From contig NZ_JACHFH010000023.1 in the NCBI RefSeq assembly GCF_014201835.1, forward strand, positions 1-49,598: a DNA stretch of 49,598 nucleotides, given 5' to 3'. Of this stretch, positions 2,733 to 36,112 are shown one piece after another. The position numbers and the translations under genes were made by a program. Below the pieces are notes generated by a model that was not told the origin of the DNA, did not search any database, and was given only the letters and a program-made list of their open reading frames with translations. Every line of letters starts with the position of its first letter. Position 1 is the stretch's first letter. This DNA comes from Pectinatus brassicae (GTDB lineage: Bacteria > Bacillota > Negativicutes > Selenomonadales > Selenomonadaceae).

Positions 2733-2897
2733 TATCTATGCTATTATAAGCGAGTAACAAGCATTGGCTGAACAGTATCTTATGAACTGTATCGCAATAT
2801 GCCGTTTAACTATCATACGATTATAGCGCTTGGATCACTGTGACCGAGACGAATGCCATAGGATATCTGCGCACATTTTCTGTAGGTGCGCTTTTTT
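2733..2897 (+). ncRNA. Structured leader RNA upstream of panC, class not assigned, with terminator
   Basis: A multi-helix RNA can be drawn. A closing helix pairs TATCTATG (2733-2740) with CATAGGATA (2857-2865). An inner helix pairs CAAGC (2758-2762) with GCTTG (2828-2832). Hairpins are ACAGT/ACTGT (2772-2776/2786-2790), CTAT/ATAG (2810-2826) and GGATCA-ctg-TGACC (2832-2845). Unpaired blocks GCGAGTAAC and CCGAGAC face each other across the junction, as in metal-sensing riboswitches of the yybP-ykoY or NiCo type. An intrinsic terminator follows (GCGCAC 2869-2874 / GTGCGC 2886-2891, then TTTTTT). The arrangement looks like an aptamer plus expression platform in front of panC. The class is not identified. 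Confidence 0.55.
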
Positions 2898-6054: not shown

Positions 6055-6310
6055 AAAAAAAAGCCCCGTCCGAAAAGGACGAGACATTATTCCCGTGGTA
6101 CCACCTTAGTTAGCAAAAAGCTCACTTTGTATCCGTTAACGCCAGATAAAACGACCAATTTTTATGGCAGCTCGCAAGTAGCCTTCTGATACATATGCTT
6201 TAACGGCTCACACCACCCGCCGCTTCTCTGAAAAACAGATATATCATACTCATTTGCTCATCGCTTACTTCTTTATGTGCTAACTATCATAGCATATTTA
6301 AAACTAGTTT
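6055..6310 (-). promoter_or_regulatory. T-box leader (tRNA-sensing riboswitch), best fit tRNA-Ala
   Basis: On the minus strand all T-box parts are present in order: kink-turn GATGA/GA at the Stem I base, the AGTA strand of the specifier loop, the distal GGCGGGTGGTGTGAGCC region, the 14-nt T-box core AAGGTGGTACCACGG (about 6091-6105), and a terminator (stem with GTCC/GGAC, then a long T run at 6055-6062). The specifier side of the loop reads GAAGGCTA, compatible with GCT (Ala) or GGC (Gly). The bulge UGGU predicts discriminator base A, which fits tRNA-Ala and not the tRNA-Gly in this window (discriminator U). Promoter: TTGCAA (6310-6315), 18 nt, TATGAT (6286-6291). Confidence 0.92.
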
Positions 6311-30084: not shown

Positions 30085-30343
30085 AGTCATCCTCCTATTT
30101 GGCATCATTAAAATATACTTATATAATAACAATAATTCTACTAAAAAGATAATGAGATTTCATTTATACGCTTTATATTTTTTAGGTCTCATCTCTGTTT
30201 TATCTAAAAAAATATATATTTACTGATTTTTTTCTAATATAATACAATTTATTGGCATTTTACTGTTGATAATTTTTTGTTTAGTCGTTATCATAAGTAT
30301 GATATTACTATTTATTTTCTTAGGAGGCTTTGCTAAAAATATT

Positions 30344-32002
30344 ATGGGTGAAAAAAAGAATCGTTGTACCGCTGATTTATTAGTTGAATGTCTGGAAGAA
30401 GAGGGTGTCAAATACATCTTCGGTATTCCCGGTGAAGAAAATCTTGCTGTTATGAAGGCTTTAGAAAATTCTAAAATACAGTTTATAACTGTCCGTCATG
30501 AACAAGGTGCCGCTTTCATGGCTGATGTCTATGGCCGCTTAACTGGTAAAGCCGGCGTTTGCCTTGCTACCTTAGGACCTGGTGCTACCAATCTCGTTAC
30601 CGGCGTTGCCGATGCTGACAGTGATGGTGCTCCATTAGTAGCAATAACCGGACAGGTTGGTACCGAACGTATGCATATTACATCCCATCAATTTCTTGAC
30701 CTTGTAAAAATGTTTGAACCGATAACCCGTCGCACTAAAATGGTTGTCCGTCCTGATACTGTCAATGAAATTGTTCGTTTAGCTTTTAAATACGCTGAAA
30801 GAGAAAAACCAGGTGCTTGCCATATTGATTTACCAGTTAATATTGGTATGATGCCAATTCCCGATGACGAAAAACCATTACAAAAACAATATCCAATAAA
30901 GGAATATGCTGCCGTCCATACAATAGACGAAGCTGCCGAAATGATTTCTTACGCTAAAACACCAGTAATTCTCGCTGGCAGTGGCGTAATTCGCGCACAT
31001 GCTGCCAAAGAATTAACTGCATTTGCTGAAAAACTAAAAATCCCAGTAATTAATACTATGATGGCTAAAGGTGCCATTCCTTTCGATAACAAATACGCTA
31101 TGTGGACTATTGGTATTCCACACTCCGATTATCAAAATAAATTACTAGAAAAAGCCAGCCTGGTTATCGCTGTTGGCTATGATATTATTGAATATGCTCC
31201 ATCCAAATGGAATAAAAACGGTAATGTCGATATTATCCACATTGATGCCTCAGCCGCCGATATAAATAAATTATATCAAGCCGAAATTGAGGTTGTCGGC
31301 AATATCCGTGATTCCTTAAAACGTATAACCGAACGGGCAGCCCGCCTGCAGGAACCAAAAGAAGCTTTAGAATTGCGTGCGAAAATGGTCGCCGAACATG
31401 AAAGCTATGCTGATGATAATTCCTTCCCGATGAAGCCACAGCGTATTTTAAATGATGTACGCAAAGTAATGGGACCCGATGATATCGTTCTTTCCGATGT
31501 CGGAGCCAACAAAGTATGGATTGCCCGCCATTACAACTGCTATAAACCAAATACCTGCATCATTTCTAATGGCTTTGCTACCATGGGTATAGCTGTTCCC
31601 GGCGCAATTGCTGCCAAACTCATCAATCCTAATAAAAAAGTCCTTGCCATTAGTGGTGACGGCGGTTTTATGATGAACTGCCAGGAATTTGAAACTGCTA
31701 TTCGTCTTGGTACAAATTTCGTTACTTTAATCTTTAACGACAGTAACTATGGCTTAATAAAATGGAAACAGGAAAACCAATACAATCACTCTTATGGGGT
31801 AGATTTCACCAATCCTGATTTTGTTAAATTTGCCGAAAGCATGCATGCAGCCGGATTCCGTATTGAATCAGCTGAAGAACTTCTGCCTACTTTGGAAAAA
31901 GCATTTAAATTAGATGTTCCTGCCATCATTGATTGTCGTGTTGATTATGATGAAAATTTAAAACTTACCGCTCACTTAAAAGAGCTTATGGAAACCTTAT
32001 AA
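30344..32002 (+). CDS. Acetolactate synthase-like thiamine-diphosphate enzyme
   Basis: 552 aa from the ATG at 30344 (MGEKKNR), the usual length of catabolic or large-subunit acetolactate synthase. Three ThDP-enzyme domains: N-terminal Pyr domain with FGIPGEENLAV and catalytic Glu in VRHEQGAAFMADVYGR; central domain; C-terminal PP domain with the ThDP motif SGDGGFMMNCQEFETAI...FNDSNYG. No regulatory-subunit gene adjoins it. An upstream frame from 30266 (TTG) would add a hydrophobic segment; AGGAGG at 30321-30326 is 16 nt from the chosen ATG, unusually far, so the start is uncertain. Would make acetolactate from pyruvate; other 2-oxoacids cannot be excluded. Confidence 0.85.
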   Translation: MGEKKNRCTADLLVECLEEEGVKYIFGIPGEENLAVMKALENSKIQFITVRHEQGAAFMADVYGRLTGKAGVCLATLGPGATNLVTGVADADSDGAPLVAITGQVGTERMHITSHQFLDLVKMFEPITRRTKMVVRPDTVNEIVRLAFKYAEREKPGACHIDLPVNIGMMPIPDDEKPLQKQYPIKEYAAVHTIDEAAEMISYAKTPVILAGSGVIRAHAAKELTAFAEKLKIPVINTMMAKGAIPFDNKYAMWTIGIPHSDYQNKLLEKASLVIAVGYDIIEYAPSKWNKNGNVDIIHIDASAADINKLYQAEIEVVGNIRDSLKRITERAARLQEPKEALELRAKMVAEHESYADDNSFPMKPQRILNDVRKVMGPDDIVLSDVGANKVWIARHYNCYKPNTCIISNGFATMGIAVPGAIAAKLINPNKKVLAISGDGGFMMNCQEFETAIRLGTNFVTLIFNDSNYGLIKWKQENQYNHSYGVDFTNPDFVKFAESMHAAGFRIESAEELLPTLEKAFKLDVPAIIDCRVDYDENLKLTAHLKELMETL

Positions 32003-32009
32003 TCTATAA

Positions 32010-32056
32010 AAACAGCAGAGCTTAGTAAAATTACTATGCCCTGCTGTTTTTATAAA
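32010..32056. terminator. Bidirectional terminator between ALS-like gene and ncRNA locus
   Basis: AAAACAGCAGAGC...GCCCTGCTGTTTTTAT forms a stem after the ALS-like gene on the plus strand. Confidence 0.75.
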
Positions 32057-32241
32057 AAAAAGCCTTGCTAAAAGCAAGGCCCTGCTACTGCAGTGTTTTA
32101 GAGGAAAGTAAGACTCTATGAGCATGAAAACCTCTATATTAGCTGATGATATAAAGGCTTTAAAAATTTTTACCTTGGGACAACCGTCCTAATACTCACT
32201 ACCTATAAAAGTTCTGAGTACAGAGGTTCGTCATTGGATAA
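32054..32241 (-). ncRNA. Putative structured non-coding RNA downstream of cobalamin riboswitch
   Basis: Minus-strand segment between the riboswitch terminator and a second strong terminator (GCCTTGC-ttttA-GCAAGGC then eight T, 32054-32080). No plausible ORF with a ribosome-binding site was found. Foldable: AACCTCTGTA (32219-32228) pairs with TATAGAGGTT (32129-32138), enclosing TACTC/GAGTA, GGAC-ggtt-GTCC and AAGG/CCTT hairpins. Expressed only if the riboswitch terminator is bypassed. Not matched to a family I know; not 6S, tmRNA, SRP or RNase P by eye. Confidence 0.5.
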
Positions 32242-32568
32242 AATAAAAACCCTCTTTTAAAAAGCTAAAAGAGGGTAAAATAATATTCCAAATTATTTAT
32301 TCAATAATCCCCTTCCCATCGCTCGCAGGTACTTATGCAATAAAATGCATAAACGGTGATTGCTGATTAGGTAGTTCTCCTGGCTTCACATCATAACCTT
32401 ACCGCTCCTTCTCAAGATTTCTCTTAATGGATAGCTTGCGGGTTTGCTCCGTGTTACAGTGGCGGGACCGCATCGGCTTGTACCGATTTCCCTATTAAGT
32501 CATTTCTGACGCCTAATCCCCCGGTATTAATTTTCTCTTATAATAGCACTTCATATATTTTTTGTCAA
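32242..32568 (-). promoter_or_regulatory. Cobalamin (B12) riboswitch with promoter and terminator
   Basis: Minus-strand promoter TTGACA (32563-32568), 17 nt, TATTAT (32540-32545). The aptamer contains GCCACTG (32457-32463), the segment GATGCGGTCCCGCCACTGTA, and the B12 box AAGCCAGGAGA (32376-32386), then hairpins. The expression platform is an 11-bp terminator stem (ACCCTCTTTTA/TAAAAGAGGGT, 32249-32276) with TTTTTATTTT. No B12-related gene follows on this strand: the next annotated gene there would be far away, and the nearest sequence is the putative ncRNA. Confidence 0.9.
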
Positions 32569-35822: not shown

Positions 35823-36007
35823 TGAGATTTATTCCTTTCTCAGCTTTGCAACAAGTTTACACTAAGAGTAATTCGCCACATTTATAATCGCTACCTGCTA
35901 TTATAAGTATTTTTATACTAATAACTTGGCACTTTCCTTATATTATATTTTTTTATTTTCTTTTAATTTTATTTATGTTATCATTAGTATAAAATTATTA
36001 TATTTTA
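35823..36007. other. Divergent intergenic region upstream of the c-di-GMP riboswitch
   Basis: AT-rich, no gene. Holds promoters for the EAL-HDOD gene and, near TATAAA at about 35989, for the riboswitch transcript. Confidence 0.35.
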
Positions 36008-36112
36008 GCAAAACTGGTGAAAATCAGTGACGCAAAGCTATGGGTCTACCGATATTATTATCTATGACTGCCAGGCTGCACTCATAGATAAGTGCAGTCT
36101 GGCAATTTTTTT
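36008..36112 (+). promoter_or_regulatory. c-di-GMP-I (GEMM-I) riboswitch with terminator
   Basis: The aptamer contains the invariant core GACGCAAAGCTA, then GGGTCTACCG and ATGACTGCCAGG, preceded by GCAAAAC; together these are the GEMM-I consensus elements. The tetraloop-receptor-like GAAA lies in GTGAAAATC. The terminator stem TGCCAGGCTGCACT/AGTGCAGTCTGGCA (36069-36105) shares its 5' arm with the 3' side of the aptamer, then seven T. Plus strand, about 90 nt before the membrane/TPR gene. Confidence 0.93.

Follow-up and report, generated by a model that had tools for sequence, protein, structure and literature searches.

Riboswitches nearly always control the adjoining downstream gene, and the few that act through RNAs do so by sequestering a protein or as antisense to a neighbor. 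EutX of Enterococcus is a non-coding RNA controlled by a cobalamin riboswitch and made only without B12. The ANTAR-type RNA motif consists of paired hairpins with conserved hexaloops. In systems of the RyhB type, when a cofactor runs short, a small RNA (sRNA) is induced that targets the mRNA of an enzyme dependent on that cofactor. According to the excerpts of the sources given here, Rli55 of Listeria combines a cobalamin riboswitch, a terminator and, behind it, a non-coding RNA whose synthesis requires the absence of B12 (PMC8079631), and the riboswitch-controlled RNA EutX is cited in PMC7266159. In the same excerpts, AspocR (Listeria) is a regulatory RNA behind a B12-OFF riboswitch that acts on an mRNA (PMC8079631, PMC9943018), and SreA (Listeria), derived from a SAM riboswitch, acts in trans by base-pairing to the leader of an mRNA (PMC8079631). 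Riboswitch-controlled RNAs are thus already known (Rli55/EutX, AspocR and SreA; excerpts of PMC8079631, PMC9943018, PMC7266159).

The window, that is, the whole stretch of DNA analyzed, comprises 49,598 nt of Pectinatus brassicae (contig NZ_JACHFH010000023.1 of assembly GCF_014201835.1), a genus of the Selenomonadaceae, Negativicutes, per NCBI. Its minus strand carries a cobalamin riboswitch followed by a short non-coding RNA. We consider it probable, judging from the sequence comparisons below, that this unit encodes, under repression by B12, a trans-acting sRNA that would pair with the mRNA of mcmA1, a methylmalonyl-CoA mutase gene, and block its translation.

As in Rli55 and EutX, the Pectinatus cobalamin riboswitch precedes a terminator and a non-coding RNA, and B12 supply would be linked to B12-dependent catabolism. 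On the other hand, Rli55 and EutX sequester the ANTAR protein EutV, whereas the Pectinatus RNA has no visible ANTAR motif, no adjacent eut genes, and predicted antisense complementarity to the start of an mRNA. The analogy with Rli55 and the eut locus, drawn in a preliminary description of this DNA, thus holds for the layout but not for ANTAR sequestration, pairing with methylmalonyl-CoA mutase mRNA being the better fit. Like AspocR, the regulatory RNA stands behind a predicted B12-OFF riboswitch; but AspocR, 1.4 kb long, is antisense to the adjacent gene, while the Pectinatus RNA is short, with an unlinked gene as predicted target. Like SreA, it is linked to a riboswitch and predicted to base-pair in trans with an mRNA. 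However, the regulator in SreA is the terminated aptamer, formed in ligand excess, and in Pectinatus a separate RNA past the terminator, expected in ligand shortage. As in RyhB-type systems, the sRNA would spare a cofactor, with control by a riboswitch instead of a repressor protein; no sequence relation is claimed. The features of the unit are as follows, G010 being a genome of another genus.

32540 to 32568, minus strand: sigma-70-like promoter TTGACA-N17-TATTAT, with 11 of 12 consensus matches.
32353 to 32531, minus strand: cobalamin riboswitch aptamer RF00174 (93.2 bits, E 5.5e-22), present also in all five Pectinatus genomes and in G010.
32309 to 32332, minus strand: P13/L13 region GTACCTGCGAGCGATGGGAAGGGG, near-invariant in six sequences; assigned by analogy with an excerpt of PMC10653944.
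32249 to 32276, minus strand: predicted intrinsic terminator 1, the riboswitch expression platform, found in 5/5 Pectinatus.
32166 to 32239, minus strand: foldable insertion of ∼73 nt, outside the conserved RNA, only in P. brassicae among the five Pectinatus.
32054 to 32165, minus strand: conserved small RNA (∼105 nt), supported by alignment and by model R1.
32129 to 32159, minus strand: hairpin 1, with UCAGC in the apical loop, supported by covariation.
32116 to 32124, minus strand: seed UGCUCAUAG, the complement of CUAUGAGCA at the mcmA1 start codon (perfect 9-nt run).
32100 to 32106, minus strand: second pairing block UUCCUCU, the complement of the mcmA1 Shine-Dalgarno GGAGGAA with one G-U.
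32059 to 32083, minus strand: intrinsic terminator 2, the predicted 3′ end of the small RNA, found in 5/5 Pectinatus.
30266 to 32002, plus strand: convergent acetolactate synthase gene (NF006187, 807.8 bits), a neighbor outside the unit.

The preliminary description had read the near-consensus promoter, the complete riboswitch, the two terminators and the convergent ALS-like gene from the letters, and all of them are borne out by these assignments. The RF00174 match covers model positions 1–189 of 189, with a gathering threshold of 31.5 bits. The promoter is retained as TTGACA-N17-TAT[TC]AT in six of six sequences (the five Pectinatus and G010), and a promoter scan gives no promoter-like site on the minus strand from the riboswitch promoter to the end of the RNA. 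Terminator-like sites in a 3.5-kb region number 8 as listed (some overlapping) versus 2.2 in shuffles. The promoter and terminator that a free transcript would need are predicted for the small RNA, and both are conserved. Elsewhere in the window, Rfam gives a T-box leader (6072–6270, minus strand), a c-di-GMP-I riboswitch (35997–36083, plus strand) and a pan motif (2769–2855, plus strand).

Past terminator 1, ∼190 nt of foldable, non-coding sequence had been described. The stretch 32241–32054 indeed folds beyond shuffles (z −4.26, 0/200; z −2.22 and 3/200 as good when the last terminator is left out), but ∼73 nt of it are the insertion, missing from the four other Pectinatus genomes, and the conserved RNA is confined to ∼32165–32054. 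The insertion is single-copy in the P. brassicae genome (best other match E 0.11). The proposal of one stem over 32129–32228 has to be given up: The minimum-energy fold has two hairpins, of which the 5′ one lies inside the insertion. The preliminary description assigned the stem and its inner hairpins to no family, in agreement with the Rfam search, in which no family reaches its gathering score within the small RNA.

Mutational dissection of a repressing cobalamin riboswitch has shown that, without bound corrinoid, P13 pairs through its 3′ side with the 5′ arm of the terminator (excerpt of PMC10653944). The Pectinatus leader has the same layout of P13, antiterminator and terminator, and an antiterminator of 6–8 bp is available in six sequences; the pairing between the P13 3′ side and the terminator 5′ arm is not clearly above shuffles (27 to 360 of 500). 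By analogy, B12 would stop synthesis of the sRNA and B12 shortage would allow it.

The five Pectinatus genomes share the whole series of promoter, riboswitch, terminator 1, RNA and terminator 2. Identity of the other Pectinatus to P. brassicae is 81%–87% in the RNA part and 76%–82% on the riboswitch side; with the RNA at least as conserved as the riboswitch, a relic is unlikely. The run UGCUCAUAGAGUUUUACUUCCUCUUAAACACUGCA is identical in the other four species, and model R1, built on the same five sequences, gives 124–140 bits in each. In the consensus fold, double-sided changes occur at 4 of 28 pairs, three in hairpin 1 (alignment columns 7–37, 8–36, and 14–30) and one in the terminator, while 3 of the 28 are broken in one or two sequences (2 of 11 within hairpin 1). 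Alignment across relatives, with the RNA conserved in 5/5 Pectinatus and hairpin 1 covarying, therefore supports the original suggestion that the B12 riboswitch controls a non-coding RNA. In all five species a convergent gene comes next: acetolactate synthase in four, and in P. frisingensis (G002) another gene ahead of it.

Over 380 genomes of the class, R1 gives six weak matches. The one in G010 (E 0.0176) lies 120 nt 3′ of a riboswitch, and its RNA has the same hairpin loop as in Pectinatus, together with UUGCUCAU; a divergent thioredoxin-like gene stands upstream in G010 and in the four other Pectinatus. The five other matches (E 0.014 to 0.083) are in loci without a riboswitch, three of them with tRNAs. 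Riboswitches without a near gene have the same layout in further genera. In a survey of riboswitch loci, a shared core GUCGAAAGGUUUUUC-hairpin-GCAUUGCUCAUACAUUUCAUUC is found 117–236 nt 3′ of the B12 box (located by a loose pattern) in most of the loci that have it and 344–442 nt in three copies of genus g6. In that genus, two tandem element copies stand behind one riboswitch (L288, 428–494 and 579–639; L223, minus strand, 1063–1124 and 848–909; L326, with a weak second copy, E 0.076).

Model R2, made of 21 element sequences from 18 genomes, reaches at least 33 bits in 20 of 57 non-Pectinatus Negativicutes genomes (13 genera, two families), behind a cobalamin riboswitch; the 57 are the genomes with at least one riboswitch locus read, not every riboswitch being read, and 18 of the 20 supplied the R2 sequences, G050 and G049 standing outside the model. 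A match in G046 is borderline (E 0.049). In 904,670 bases of other sequence the best R2 match has 20.7 bits (E 0.89), the exact core patterns have 0 matches in viral contigs, and Rfam returns only riboswitch and tRNA matches in twelve element loci, with no family matching the element. UGCUCAU occurs in 19 of the 21 aligned elements from other genera. The element hairpin, as tested on the alignment from which it was derived, has 85.6% of cells paired versus 75.3% in shuffles (0/500) and 32 double-sided changes versus 13.9 (0/500); both values exceed every slid control, and the number of covarying pairs (74/500 shuffles) and the pair types (182/500) are unremarkable. Because the Pectinatus and G010 RNAs give no R2 match, homology between these and the wider element is drawn only from position, hairpin and UGCUCAU.

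The gene 3′ of the element differs between genera. Between riboswitch and gene, the element precedes a cbiK-like gene in G006, G009, G027, G033, G050, and G054; it also precedes mutA (small subunit of methylmalonyl-CoA mutase) in G072 and a GntP-like transporter in g5 and g16 (the names cbiK, GntP, MeaB, thioredoxin, and regulator are read from translations, without a family call). No near same-strand gene follows in Pectinatus, G010, G018, G020, or G055. These cbiK-like, mutA and transporter neighbors make a cis role possible in some genera, and would suit a second cis-acting leader module (an attenuator) of B12-regulated operons, the gene-less copies being remnants or local. As an account of the element this is unlikely, although it deserves to be kept in mind. 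The next gene is convergent in every Pectinatus although the RNA stays 81%–87% identical, the downstream gene varies while the seed hardly varies, which argues for a diffusible function, and the seed matches an unlinked gene, mcmA1.

The mcmA1 target came to light in G033, from an unselected sample of twenty spaced 20-kb stretches (400 kb, 269 gene starts). There mcmA1, a second methylmalonyl-CoA mutase gene (TIGR00641, 800 bits), ranks 1 of 269 genes with a perfect 12-nt run over AUAUGAGCAAUG, and is the sole gene of the sample with a perfect run of at least 10. The mutA gene of G033, fetched separately, also has a 12-nt run, and 3 of 269 genes are as good. With mcmA1 named beforehand in this way, the sRNAs of all five Pectinatus are complementary to its start codon and Shine-Dalgarno, the start reading AGGAGGA...ACUAUGAG[CU]A in 5/5. 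The P. brassicae gene (TIGR00641, 815.9 bits) is followed by that for the B12-binding chain (TIGR00640), and the mcmA1 loci, over 475–625 nt upstream in Pectinatus, have no riboswitch at the Rfam gathering threshold.

The pairing energies, which are RNAduplex values without site accessibility, are −21.9 kcal/mol in P. brassicae, −23.1 in G004, −21.5 in G002, −23.5 in G003, and −25.7 in G001. In the same order, background genes as good as mcmA1 number 0/101, 3/320, 1/47, 1/55, and 1/59, sets that, the G004 one excepted, are small and had been retrieved with other aims, and shuffled sRNAs as good on mcmA1 number 1, 0, 1, 0, and 0 of 1000. By the longest perfect run alone, 1/101, 5/320, 7/47, 0/55, and 2/59 background genes equal mcmA1. 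It is first outright in P. brassicae only and below the top in the other four sets; the background genes that do better differ from species to species, and mcmA1 is near the top in six of six genomes tested. Shine-Dalgarno pairing of a generic kind accounts for part of the match. In predicted folds of 19 sequences, the mean probability of being unpaired is 0.54 over 8 nt of the seed and 0.62 over 19 nt, versus 0.36 upstream. Compared with three other Pectinatus, P. brassicae has one more base between the sRNA pairing blocks and one more in the mRNA spacer, which, as the sequences align, is a single compensating indel pair. The conserved seed is, by these comparisons, complementary to an mRNA initiation region above controls.

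Other candidates were set aside. As a Pectinatus target, mutA has energy ranks of 57/81, 20/49, 1/33, 2/47, and 2/42, and in the G004 sample 7/323 genes are as good; L-lactate dehydrogenase ranks 4/81, 4/49, and 3/33; mcmA1 was kept as better than either. Near-complements of the CU-rich stretch are, besides the sRNA locus, only intragenic. Of the matches to the hairpin-loop complement, 25 have loci away from the sRNA locus; almost all of these lie in or opposite coding sequence, with no match at a shared gene start in that scan, and AGAGGAA-type Shine-Dalgarno patterns did not lead to a shared gene start. When the wider family's seed is used, mutA occupies ranks 1, 2, 8, 9, and 10 of 169 gene starts (genes near riboswitches), two other recognized mutA genes being at 39 and 83. 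Against 291 background genes, each genome with its own sRNA, mutA is matched or beaten by 15 in G008, 13 in G006, 59 in G019, 14 in G020, 1 in G033, 59 in G045, 6 in G058, and 278 in G072.

A trans-acting sRNA with a main target other than mcmA1 is improbable. The scan covered ∼15% of G033 and of G004 and smaller parts of the others, and two sites pair better than mcmA1. In P. frisingensis (G002; L183, minus strand, position 219 of the reverse complement), a site inside a regulator-like gene matches the sRNA near full length, over ∼34 nt, at −35.7 kcal/mol, a value to be set against 0 of 26,068 windows reaching −30 kcal/mol in the G004 sample. In G001, the start of an ANTAR-regulator gene pairs at −27.1. 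Both are single-species matches in the sequence examined, however, whereas mcmA1 is near the top in every genome tested.

For the mcmA1-directed sRNA, the following course of events is proposed. With plentiful corrinoid, the aptamer would be bound, terminator 1 would form, and only the riboswitch leader would be made. With scarce corrinoid, RNA polymerase would read through and yield the ∼105-nt RNA up to terminator 2. This RNA would expose single-stranded UUGCUCAU plus flanks (in Pectinatus, UGCUCAUAG...UUCCUC), and the exposed stretch would pair with mcmA1 at its Shine-Dalgarno and start codon and block translation. The gene mcmA1 encodes the catalytic chain of a B12-dependent methylmalonyl-CoA mutase and has itself no detectable riboswitch. 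Less apo-mutase would be made when the cofactor is short, sparing B12, and flux through the B12-dependent propionate branch would fall when B12 is scarce. We infer the B12-OFF polarity, the transcription and size of the sRNA, the translational repression and the physiology.

Protein sequestration by the RNA, on the model of Rli55 and EutX with EutV, is very improbable. The layout is the same and each Pectinatus genome has at least one ANTAR protein, but the RNA folds, inspected by eye for the ANTAR motif, contain no hexaloop hairpin pair, and the most conserved part is predicted to be single-stranded and complementary to an mRNA. We give equally little credence to an antisense-acting riboswitch controlling the convergent acetolactate synthase, in the manner of AspocR or of the SAM riboswitch in the ubiG operon of C. 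acetobutylicum. Acetolactate synthase is the convergent neighbor in four of five Pectinatus, and cobalamin riboswitches acting through antisense are known (excerpt of PMC9943018); yet the predicted RNA end at 32059 falls short of the stop codon at 32002, provided that terminator 2 works, another convergent gene intervenes in G002, and the 3′ neighbor in G010 is not acetolactate synthase.

A relic of a deleted B12 gene, the alternative offered in the preliminary description, is most unlikely, the RNA being strongly conserved and covarying, with its second terminator retained, in 5/5 species, even if relics may occur in the genus, as the G004 riboswitch at 1236564 with one terminator and no nearby gene suggests. 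A coding gene directly after the riboswitch in relatives had been named as a sign of such a deletion: In 5/5 Pectinatus there is none, and where one follows in some other genera it stands behind the element and a terminator-like hairpin, not in its place, so that the relic reading is unsupported. Just as unlikely is a small peptide encoded by the transcript, for which there are weak start codons 3′ of the hairpin and a 24-aa ORF on the plus strand (32118–32192), since indels between species break both frames and the stop codon, as read from the sequence, would fall past terminator 2. The G004 riboswitch itself (C1, 1236564–1236741; L266), with a terminator and no clear gene or second terminator near, is plausibly a true relic. 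In G003, two long leaders of TonB-receptor-like genes (L241, L265) contain, by eye, an apparent tandem second cobalamin aptamer.

The regulatory logic of the mcmA1-directed sRNA is complicated by mutAB, which has its own, apparently repressing riboswitch. By eye, mutAB of all five Pectinatus follows a cobalamin riboswitch and then two tandem terminators (L203/L082, L204–L207). In P. brassicae (contig C6), a leader ORF crosses both mutAB terminators and overlaps the mutA start. According to an excerpt of PMC9600662, the mutA riboswitch of Veillonella parvula is among the 38 of 86 reporters in which GFP was repressed by corrinoids. By analogy, the two mutases may be regulated in opposite directions. 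In three Pectinatus species, L-lactate dehydrogenase (TIGR01771) stands directly 3′ of a cobalamin riboswitch (L084, 499–1542, minus strand; L247; L262); from this position, B12 may steer fermentation toward lactate. A wider reading, tentative and rather doubtful, is an RNA-only B12 isozyme switch, with mutAB repressed in cis at high B12 and mcmA1-A2 by the sRNA at low B12, together with a lactate/propionate flip, across the Negativicutes. If true, B12 would flip the cell between two B12-dependent methylmalonyl-CoA mutases and, in concert with the L-lactate dehydrogenase under riboswitch control, between fermentation to propionate and to lactate, and the same sRNA family would perform the switch across the Negativicutes.

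Among the open-licence papers searched we came across neither a riboswitch-controlled sRNA from Pectinatus or another member of the Negativicutes nor an sRNA against methylmalonyl-CoA mutase, which does not prove absence. What is new here is, by prediction, base-pairing with the unlinked mRNA of a B12-dependent enzyme, and, from the sequence surveys, a family across the Negativicutes for which the scanned loci gave no Rfam match. The prediction is resolved to single bases. If it is true, a group of anaerobes would run a base-pairing sRNA from a riboswitch and so extend B12 sensing to an unlinked mRNA, and B12 would gain a sparing response comparable to that of iron, directly tied to the formation of propionate.
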